From Deltaproteobacteria bacterium (GTDB lineage: Bacteria > Lernaellota > Lernaellaia > JACKCT01): 64,000 nucleotides of DNA. Both the position numbers and the translations under genes were made by a program. Positions 7,476-10,362 of this stretch are shown piece by piece (the first letter of the stretch is position 1; every line of letters begins with the position of its first letter). The notes beneath the pieces were generated by a model. It was not told the DNA's origin, did not search any database, and saw only the letters and a list, made by a program, of their open reading frames with translations. The stretch lies in contig JAOSJX010000002.1 in assembly GCA_027493875.1 (NCBI GenBank), positions 1 through 64,000 of the forward strand, given 5' to 3'.

Positions 7476-7684
7476 TTACCGCGGGGCGGCGAAATCCCGA
7501 TTCACGACGGAAGGACTTTTTGGCCCCGGGGCGAGTAAACCAACGCGCAAATGTGGGCGGCCGAGAGAGAAACGTCTTAAATGACAGAAAGCGCAGATTT
7601 AATGGGTGACTGTCCCCTGTTTCCTTACGGCCGCGAGCCGAGCGGCCTGTCCTTGGCGCGCCTGAACAAGGCGTTCCCGCTGGA

Positions 7685-9029
7685 GTGGGAAGAACAACGT
7701 CGGGATCTCGGTTTTTCGGAATCACCGACTCGTCCCTGAACATCCGCCGCAAGAAGTCCTTGCCCAAGCGATTTGTCTGTTGGACAATGTCGTCGAAAGA
7801 AATCTGGAGATTCTTCTTGCGCTTACGCCTCCAGTTGATTGCAGACGAATTCGCCGAAACGCTTTCAGACGAAATCCTCGCTGGTGGTCTATCTTTGGTC
7901 GATGCCATTGAACGAATTCTAGGTGACCATCTAGAAACGTCCGTATTGAACCTCTTCGGAAATCGGCTCATCAAGGCACCTAGAGCTATCGTTCACCCTT
8001 TTTATTATAAAAATCAGTTCGAAAAATATGTCCGGGCTTCGCGAGCACGGGTATCAGACGTGGTACCCAGAGGTGCATTTTTCGACTCGGAAGGGGGACG
8101 ATCTTGCCATTGAGGAAGTCGAAACAGTCGGGTTCGATCTAGGGGCGATTCAATACGGACATGGGATTGAATTGGCCCACCAATACGCTCGAAAAGAACT
8201 CAAGACACAAATAAACCATCGCGTCCGGCTGAACGAGGTCAAGCTTCCATCGGAAATATTTACTGAGACGACCAAGAAAATCGAAACAAAAGGCCTACTG
8301 AAACAGCCTTTCATCGCAAATCTCTGCGTCGGTCCACAACTCAACGGATTCCGAGTAGTTTCCTTTGACCACGTGCTGACCGGAGAGAGGCGATTTTGTA
8401 GCTGTCATATCGGTGCGCATCAAGAAATGTTAAACGATGCGCGTAAGCACCTGTCGTCCTACGCTCCAGGCTCATGGCCGCACGGGGTCATTGAACTGCT
8501 CGAAGGTGCTGTCTACGAAGATTCCATTTGCCACTTTTGCGTGGCGAGCATTCACGGTGAAGAAAGGCTTGTCGACTGGTACGGAGATCAAATCCAGACA
8601 TATTTTGATCCATACGTAGACCTGCTGATTCGAGGAGAAAAAATGGACCCTCGGACAGCTGACGCCGAGGCGAAACGTCGACTGGCGCTAAACCGGTGGG
8701 TGCGTGAAGCTGAACTGTATCGTTTAGTATCAAAATTATTTCAGTCGCAGAAAATTATGCGAGAGGCATCCCCAACATGGCTCGGTCGGCAGCGGTTGGA
8801 CATCTATTTACCAGAACTTTCGCTTGCCCTTGAGTATCAGGGAGAGCAGCACTTCCGGCCGATCGAGGCATTTGGAGGTGACGAGGCGTTCGCCAAGAAT
8901 CGAGAGCGAGACGAGCGGAAGCGAGTGCTGTGCAAGGAAAACGGTGTGACCATCGTTGACATCAGGTTCGACGAGAATTTTACGCTGGGGAGTCTACGGT
9001 CGAGATTGCGGCGATGGCTCACTGACTGA
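7685..9029 (+). CDS. Putative nuclease with C-terminal PD-(D/E)XK-like domain (frameshift near 8030)
   Basis: ORFs 7685..8113 and 8028..9029; QRLDIYLPELSLALEYQGEQHF...RDERKRVLCKENGVTIVDIRFDE; Cys pairs CSCH and CHFC; visibly lower GC than surroundings. Confidence 0.6.
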
Positions 9030-9074
9030 TGGCTGTAGGCCTTCATATTACTCTGCTTTGTGACGAGCGTTCGT

Positions 9075-9113
9075 TTTGCCACTCCGCGCGGGAGTCGAAC
9101 CGCGCCTTGGCAC
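9075..9113 (-). other. tRNA-like T-arm fragment downstream of the GIY-YIG gene
   Basis: Minus strand GGGGGTGCCAAGGCGCGGTTCGACTCCCGCGCGGAGTGGCA; TTCGACT loop with GC-rich flanks; no full cloverleaf seen. Confidence 0.4.
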
Positions 9114-9262
9114 CCCCTTTCGTAAGTGCTTGAAAAATAAGCACTCCCGTCTTGTTGACGAGTTGGCCGAAGTCACGAAGATTCAGAGAGGAGAGAGAAA
9201 AAGGGCGTTTTCGGGGGCAAATGTGGGCTTTTCGGGGGTAGACTCGTCACGCTGCGCGGTTG

Positions 9263-9550
9263 TCATTGTTTATACCTCCGACTCAACCCGTGAAGCGCGG
9301 CCACATTCCCGCTTATTAATGCTTCCTTCTTCGCTCTGGACCATCGTTTGATCTGTCGTTCGCGTCGAACTGCTGCTGTCTCACTCTCGCAAACTTCGGT
9401 ATAGGCCAATACAACCGGTCGGCGTAACCTGGTGAAATTAGCCGCTTTTCCGTCGTTGTGCGCCTGTACGCGCTGCTCGACGTCCGATGTTGAGCCGACG
9501 TAGTAGCTGCCGTCGGAGCAACGGAGAATGTAAACGTAAAAATCATTCAT
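9263..9550 (-). CDS. GIY-YIG nuclease superfamily protein (UPF0213/YhbQ-like size)
   Basis: MNDFYVYILRCSDGSYYVGSTSDVEQRVQAHNDGKAA; GIY-YIG core as VYIL...YYVGST. Confidence 0.85.
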   Translation of the reverse strand: MNDFYVYILRCSDGSYYVGSTSDVEQRVQAHNDGKAANFTRLRRPVVLAYTEVCESETAAVRRERQIKRWSRAKKEALISGNVAALHGLSRRYKQ

Positions 9551-9587
9551 GCCCTTCGATGCGCTCCCTTTGGTCGCTTACTCAGGA

Positions 9588-9659
9588 CACCATTCGACTC
9601 GCTCGAAAAGTTGGCCTGCCATGAGCGAGCGAGAACCGTTTCGAGCGAGTCGAATGGTG
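9588..9659. repeat. Perfect 21-bp inverted repeat
   Basis: CACCATTCGACTCGCTCGAAA (9588-9608) and TTTCGAGCGAGTCGAATGGTG (9639-9659), 30-nt spacer; right arm contains the CCA end of the adjacent tRNA-like sequence. Confidence 0.9.
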
Positions 9660-9740
9660 GAGGTGGCGAGAGTCGAACCATCGTCCTGTGGTCGGAGTCC
9701 AATCCGTTGGAATCGGCGTCATCGTAGGGTTCCGTGTTCA
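9655..9740 (-). ncRNA. tRNA/tmRNA 3'-domain-like sequence ending in CCA
   Basis: Minus strand ...CCAACGGATTGGACTCCGACCACAGGACGATGGTTCGACTCTCGCCACCTCCACCA; T-loop TTCGACT, GCCACCTCCACCA end; T-stem pairing is poor and no complete cloverleaf was recognised. Confidence 0.4.
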
Positions 9741-9807
9741 AGCATGAGCATTATCGTACGGCCAGTAAACTCTACGGGAACTTTTCTCGGCATTTGCTCG
9801 TGCGGGT

Positions 9808-9813
9808 ATTATA
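9808..9813 (-). promoter_or_regulatory. Candidate -10 box (TATAAT) upstream of the tRNA-like/GIY-YIG unit
   Basis: Minus strand GGTGTATAATACCCGC; no convincing -35. Confidence 0.35.
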
Positions 9814-9875
9814 CACCAAATCTCCTGAGCGAGTCGCCTGGAGCGGTTCGCGAATGCACGTATTTCCTCCACAAA

Positions 9876-10362
9876 CATCAGGTGGGCGCGGTCGACAGTT
9901 TTCAGTCAACAGTTATTGAGATTTGCATAATTAATGGCACGGTGATTTTCCATCAGGGCTTCCGCGGTGCCGGCCCCTTCGGGGGCTTCTCGATCTTCTT
10001 CGCGCTTTTCCCCAGGGCTCACCAGCCTTCGCTAAAGCTACGGCGTGGCAGGCGCCGCGGGCTACTCCCCGTCGCCGCGCAAGCGGGGCTCGCGTTCGAT
10101 CGGCGATCACGCCTCGGGGGGACGAAACGCCCGAAGGGCGTGACAGGGAATAGCCAGGCGCGTCAGCGCCTGGGATCGGATCGAAGAACAAAACAGCCCC
10201 GAAGGGGCCGGCACCGGATCGCCGCCGCGCGGATAGGATAGCGCGACGCCGGGTCGAAGCATTATTAATACAGAGGCCTATAACAGCATTCTCCGGCGTC
10301 GCGGCCGTTTTCGTCCGTGCGAGCTTTCGACTTTCGACTTTGAACTTTGAACCGTCAACCAA
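9876..10362 (-). repeat. Composite intergenic repeat, copy 1, apparently interrupted by a palindromic cassette (~9936-10258)
   Basis: Shares GTTCAAAGTCGA-AGTCGA...CACGGACGRAARCSGCCGCGACGCYGGAGAATGC and ACYGTYGACTGAAAACYGTCGACCGC with 25227-25345; interior bounded by GCATAATTAAT (9925-9935) and GCATTATTAAT (10259-10269). Confidence 0.7.
9966..10215. repeat. REP-like palindromic cassette with near-perfect terminal inverted repeats
   Basis: GGTGCCGGCCCCTTCGGGGGC (9966-9986) and GCCCCGAAGGGGCCGGCACC (10196-10215); internal hairpins CGCCCGAAGGGCG and CCAGGCGCGTCAGCGCCTGG. Confidence 0.75.

Follow-up and report, generated by a model that had tools for sequence, protein, structure and literature searches.

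Among T-even phages, the free-standing GIY-YIG homing endonuclease SegB is encoded near tRNA genes of many isotypes and cleaves within tRNA genes, its motif being RAWTSGAAC, as given in the excerpts of its description available to us (PMC13096335). REP/REPIN palindromes are accompanied by a dedicated nuclease gene, also occur as gene-less copies and are dispersed in some genomes, with the RAYTs being tyrosine transposases of the HUH type (excerpts of PMC3116915 and PMC3733652). For islands that target tDNAs, the excerpted Islander paper (PMC4383910) takes a displaced 3' fragment of the tDNA as the scar of an island, has ssrA as a favoured target and notes that targeting of tDNAs is not known for serine recombinases. 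As far as these excerpts go, SegB is the nearest described behaviour to that of the locus studied here, and REPIN/RAYT comes closest where palindromes with their own nuclease are concerned. The locus matches neither in full, and we claim likeness, not membership.

The locus lies in the window, our term for the whole analysed stretch of 64,000 nt. We read it as two nested mobile features and not as a tmRNA gene, namely an island scar at the 3' end of ssrA and a hairpin/GIY-YIG unit sitting on it, and give this reading a probability of about 0.7. All features are on the minus strand unless stated otherwise. The tRNA/tmRNA-like 3' domain GACGATGGTTCGACTCTCGCCACCTCCACCA described by the sequence-only reading was recovered both by reading the minus strand and with the tools, and it ends at 9655. 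The last 32 nt of the intact ssrA of the same genome (contig C6) match window positions 9686-9655 at 91%, with 24 of 25 positions identical over T arm and acceptor. Therefore, this domain is a detached 3' end of ssrA, comprising T arm, acceptor strand and CCA.

The perfect 21-bp inverted repeat reported from the sequence was confirmed, with its left arm at 9639-9659, its right arm at 9588-9608 and a loop of 30 nt (single-strand DNA fold, z -5.2). The left arm begins 5 nt inside the tmRNA 3' end, so that the tmRNA CACCA makes up the first 5 nt of this arm, and the right arm ends in the complementary TGGTG. Within the loop region, 9613-9626 holds the conserved core of the unit, GCTCATGGCAGGCC, a pattern that recurs at tRNA 3' ends elsewhere. 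A second palindrome-like piece (CCTGAG ... ATCGAAGGGC; 9551-9586) stands directly ahead of the start codon, and the motif CCTGAGC...GTCGAAGGGC precedes the GIY-YIG ORFs of relatives.

The intact gene that follows (9550-9263, 95 aa) encodes a GIY-YIG nuclease, as had been proposed: it matches PF01541 with 74.2 bits (cut-off 22.6), and the invariant catalytic residues Y17, R27 and E64, as well as the invariant G19, are kept in an alignment of 14 proteins. Residues 4-80 are alike to the UPF0213 structures 1zg2 and 1ywl (E = 1e-17 and 2e-15). No recognisable DNA-binding domain was found beyond the catalytic one, and the protein had no PHROG match. The gene is followed by a conserved ssrA 3'-flank segment that lacks its terminator part (9256-9065). 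The second T-arm fragment noticed earlier does exist but had been placed at 9113-9080, 4 nt off its true place at 9117-9084; motif count and alignment identify it as the end of the flank segment, with the T-loop GGTTCGACTCCCGC at 9101-9088. Allowing up to one mismatch, GGTTCGACTCNCGC has two copies in the window versus 0.35 expected from shuffles, and at least two copies were seen in 4 of 100 shuffles of the window.

On the plus strand, a homing-endonuclease-like gene (8028-9029; PHROGs 559 and 9084) lies beside the island end and matched no Pfam, NCBIfam or PADLOC family. The flank segment thus stands between two unrelated nuclease genes. On the other side of the locus, we observed an Acido-Lenti-1 RNA at 10126-10173 (minus strand; 40.7 bits, above its cut-off), enclosed by a 34-nt, 82% inverted repeat with arms at 9965-9998 and 10183-10216.

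The sequence-only reading had considered a circularly permuted or two-piece tmRNA gene with the nuclease ORF in its intervening region. The order of the pieces fits such a gene, GGGGGTG is able to pair with CACCTCC as an acceptor stem, and the real ssrA of the genome also begins with GGGGGTG. However, that intact, one-piece ssrA lies elsewhere (G000:C6:43121-43476, 193 bits), so the window locus is not the only ssrA of the genome. On the window locus, the tmRNA covariance model reached only 6.2 bits (E = 5.6), an Rfam scan of 8900-10300 with E up to 5 gave no tRNA or tmRNA match, and ARAGORN detected neither anywhere in the window. The GGGGGTG is not conserved either: among 10 aligned copies of the segment the window alone has it, and G006 has GGGGTG. 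Moreover, the supposed 5' piece follows complete, one-piece ssrA genes in relatives. The 149-nt leader between TATAAT and the ssrA scrap folds no better than shuffles (z +0.8), a further point against a permuted gene. A tag reading frame found there by eye (ANAEKSSRRVYWPYDNAHA) was dropped, as no tmRNA structure lies behind it. TATAAT itself is present at 9813-9808, but it has no -35 partner, and no sigma-70-type site was found in 9000-10300, so it shows no sign of being the gene's own promoter. An intact ssrA elsewhere with no model match at the locus is what the sequence-only reading had itself named as decisive against a permuted gene. We conclude that this interpretation is wrong, and we leave it practically no chance.

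A displaced 32-nt end of ssrA is the kind of fragment by which islands in tDNAs are recognised, and the flank segment points to the same history. It has two more copies in the genome, at C6:27920-28055 (86%) and at C6:42994-42819 (74%), the latter beginning 127 nt past the intact ssrA. Matches were found in four of the six other genomes of the phylum searched, and in G006 the segment is 93% identical and directly follows ssrA. An intact ssrA was present in six of seven genomes of the phylum, and all six carry a recognisable flank segment. Behind each of these ssrA genes (G000-G004 and G006; L001, L161-L165), the conserved segment of about 190 nt comes after a terminator-like spacer and comprises a pyrimidine tract and, in most copies, a T-loop at its end. 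This T-loop (TTCGACTC or TTCAACTC) occurs in five of the six ssrA-linked copies and is absent from G003. Detached flank copies preceded by a scrap of the ssrA 3' end were found in G003 (L039; 32 nt, degenerate) and in G005 (L040, CCCGCCGCCTCCACCA; L038, CTCCACCA), and a weaker one in the window's own genome (L029). Evidence for an RNA structure of the segment was weak (covariation term 0.02; double changes in 4 of 23 pairs), and we make no such claim.

A large serine recombinase with Resolvase, Recombinase and zinc-ribbon domains, together with a small partner protein with a weak ParB match under its cut-off, adjoins the segment at L030, L036/L165, L037/L163, L029 and L040, and neither protein was found at L161, L162, L164, L038 and L039. 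The pair stands beside the ssrA flank at 28-43 kb of G000:C6 and at L036, L037 and L040, with ssrA scraps elsewhere. At the window copy we found no integrase on board: no recombinase match was obtained in the window, and only a remnant of the partner protein is present, its last 29 aa (7629-7715, plus strand; 69% identity, E = 1e-7). We rejected the view that the segment is nothing but the terminus of a serine-recombinase element, since G001, G002 and G003 also carry it behind ssrA, with no recombinase found in the stretch examined. It can be regarded no less as a conserved flank of ssrA than as a recombinase-element end, and it had no plasmid match. We take 7629-9686 to be the degraded end of an island associated with ssrA, and a large serine recombinase may have done the targeting. 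In the excerpted paper on tDNA islands (PMC4383910), the displaced tDNA 3' fragment and the preference for ssrA are as at our locus; a difference is that several ssrA flank copies here adjoin a large serine recombinase with a putative targeting role, and the ssrA-linked recombinase may be an exception to the statement made there on tDNA targeting. The two T-arm pieces accordingly do not bound a single unit: on the left is the ssrA scrap at which the unit sits, on the right the end of the ssrA-flank/island segment.

A protein search returned 33 loci from many phyla. Using ARAGORN and scripts, we found a tRNA or tmRNA gene at most 700 nt upstream on the same strand in 17 of them (tmRNA, 4; Val, 3; Ala, Ser and Leu, 2 each; Arg, Asp, Asn and Gln, 1 each). 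Of the 30 loci returned as a second set when 294 genomes were searched (97 had a match), 11 are RNA-gene-adjacent, including 4 with tmRNA; L103 of this second set is the same place as L045. The gene is thus found, as is segB, beside tRNA genes of many isotypes. An opposite-strand tRNA in the same interval was found at none of the 63 loci. L057 has a convergent tRNA-Ala downstream, whose 3' end bears a hairpin of its own. The earlier idea of a mobile GIY-YIG unit with tRNA-like ends is therefore supported in part: such units do stand at the 3' ends of tRNA and tmRNA genes in different phyla, but the unit does not have the two T-arm pieces as its two ends. In an altered and wider form of that idea, the GIY-YIG/hairpin unit is probably mobile with a preference for tRNA 3' ends. 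Repeated partial tRNA-Val or tRNA-Asn pieces surround the GIY-YIG genes at L072, L073 and L079, much like the tRNA amplification that has been reported for SegB in phages, and L073 has the end of a second GIY-YIG copy upstream.

Adjacency to RNA genes followed the protein phylogeny. In a tree of 64 rows, retained after exclusion of short-alignment matches and of five duplicate places (L081, L082, L086, L103, L088), the tRNA-adjacent label required 5 changes versus 21.4 when shuffled, and none of 500 shuffles was as low; the tree rests on 88 columns, with many forks unresolved. Twenty-nine rows are tRNA-adjacent, among them three at relics (the window, L075 and L046), and 35 of the 64 proteins have no tRNA beside them. 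Adjacency is thus a heritable habit that clusters on the tree. The window protein pairs with L075 (98/88) and is next closest to the tmRNA-adjacent proteins L061, L043, L101 and L106. In G004, L075 likewise stands behind an isolated tmRNA-like end, some 22 nt long, and the intact ssrA of that genome lies elsewhere.

The hairpin is fixed to the RNA end as well. Anchored at most 7 nt from the RNA 3' end, perfect arms of 9 nt or more were present at 23 of 31 loci, whereas random places gave 0.7 of 31 on average; L081, L082, L086, L103 and L088 were left out of this count as the same places as L046, L048, L045, L045 and L102, respectively. At 17 of the 31 loci the arm begins at or inside the RNA end, and eight adjacent loci lack an arm of that length. 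Other tRNA ends in the DNA examined had such arms in 8 of 46 cases, or in 4 of 42 after removal of three unit loci (L089, L057, L083) and an artefact caused by N bases (L046). In loci with an arm that extends 5 nt into the RNA, the right arm fits the respective target, with TGGTG for CACCA in the window, L042, L043, L061 and L106 and TGGAG for CTCCA in L101 and L075, which makes seven fitting cases in all, a small number.

Searching by the hairpin pattern TTCGACTCGC...GCTCATGGCAGGCC, which contains no tRNA gene sequence, gave five matches in 21 host genomes and, slightly relaxed, four in 392 genomes (412 genomes in total, one being shared); the pattern read backward gave none. Each of the nine matches begins where a tRNA ends, after A73 or CCA, eight at tRNAs called by ARAGORN (with an overlap of one base at L083) and one at a decayed tRNA-Ser recognised by eye. 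Four of these places (L081, L082, L086, L088) were also found by protein. The other five (L080, L083, L084, L085, L087) showed no GIY-YIG match in the stretch examined, which at L080 is near a contig end, and hairpins without the gene therefore exist at five of nine pattern places. One of them, L084, lies between tRNA-Ile and tRNA-Ala. In G020 there are three such hairpins, two of them at tRNA-Ala genes and the third at a tRNA-Ile gene. Since most of the sampled hairpin-bearing genomes have one hairpin, copy number does little to support mobility. Relatives of the gene that are not adjacent to tRNAs are often found among dispersed palindromes: TTCGACNNGCTCA occurred 820 times versus 137 for the control in 26 genomes, with an at least 5-fold excess in 13 of the 26. 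This signal is weak in the phylum (91 versus 54 in 7 genomes), and the window's genome has 17 versus 5. A viral origin was rejected, as the hairpin pattern was absent from viral contigs, the protein had no PHROG match and the flank had no plasmid match.

One empty site was observed. The genome has a second, divergent GIY-YIG unit (L010, G000:C15) that abuts tRNA-Phe, and its hairpin (CATCCGCCTTCGCTC / GAGCGAAGGCGGATG) differs from that of the window. The orthologous tRNA-Phe in G002 is empty of the unit, with upstream DNA 77% identical over 1073 nt and no GIY-YIG match in that genome at E up to 0.001; this comparison concerns the L010 unit and not the window type. No unit was found at five ssrA genes of relatives, nor at the intact ssrA of the genome itself.

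Under the reading of two nested mobile features, an island associated with the ssrA 3' end would have left a scar made up of the terminal 32 nt of ssrA, with the body of the gene missing, of the flank segment with its T-loop and of the tail of the partner protein. The unit of hairpin and GIY-YIG gene would then have come to sit at the 3' end of the ssrA scrap. We propose that the nuclease cuts tRNA-like 3' ends or DNA close to them, the putative target T-loop TTCGANTC resembling TTCGACTC at the unit's own left end, and that repair from a unit-bearing copy would set hairpin and gene beside the RNA gene. Hairpin-only copies could have been moved in trans. Since the unit starts after A73 or CCA, the RNA would stay intact and the site would be a safe haven. 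Position, conservation, hairpin, tree clustering and one empty site are observations, whereas cutting, mobility and the order of events are inferred. The window unit itself may be inactive, because it is located at a relic.

The unit could instead carry a short tRNA/tmRNA 3'-end copy, from T arm to CCA, and spread with it, in which case it would not have landed on an island scar. This would account for the window and L075 each holding only the last 22-32 nt, each closest to the ssrA of its own genome, and for L116 (G039), where a full tRNA-Leu is followed by a second 3'-end copy interrupted by a palindrome and then by the GIY-YIG ORF. However, similar ssrA scraps occur in G003 and G005 beside the same flank segment and without a GIY-YIG unit, so that islands suffice to explain the scrap in the window, and we regard a carried 3' end as distinctly unlikely. 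The hairpin could also be resident at tRNA genes and serve their 3' processing or termination, with the nuclease as a passive neighbour or domesticated gene; the five gene-less hairpins and the pairing of the arm with the RNA 3' end speak for this. The unit, however, has no terminator-like site, and the hairpin was rejected as an intrinsic terminator for want of a T-run. Related hairpins follow many isotypes across phyla and are sporadic, occurring four times in 392 genomes of one phylum, and related genes without tRNA neighbours sit amid dispersed palindromes. We therefore consider a resident element unlikely, and retain the mobile unit on an island scar. More tentatively, and at somewhat under even odds, such units could be widespread hairpin-ended miniature mobile elements in which a GIY-YIG nuclease replaces the transposase, targeted to exact tRNA/tmRNA 3' ends, with gene-less copies moved in trans and a right arm that matches the 3' end of each target (CACCA/TGGTG, CTCCA/TGGAG).

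By our own comparison with the excerpted SegB description, the reverse complement of RAWTSGAAC, GTTCSAWTY, looks like a tRNA T arm. SegB differs in being phage-borne and, in those excerpts, has no hairpin abutting the tRNA 3' end, whereas the window unit is cellular and encodes a protein of 95 aa with putative cutting activity. The gene of the unit is of the GIY-YIG type only, unlike the HUH-type RAYTs of the excerpted REP papers, and within the genomes searched its tRNA-type hairpin is rare and occurs at tRNA 3' ends only. In the open-access PMC literature we found no description of GIY-YIG hairpin units at cellular tRNA ends, an absence that is unproven. If the units move, they would form a nuclease-driven element family at tRNA and tmRNA ends across phyla that leaves the RNA unbroken. 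They would be the cellular equivalent of phage SegB, would parallel REP/RAYT with another nuclease fold, and would explain palindromes directly behind tRNA genes in environmental genomes.
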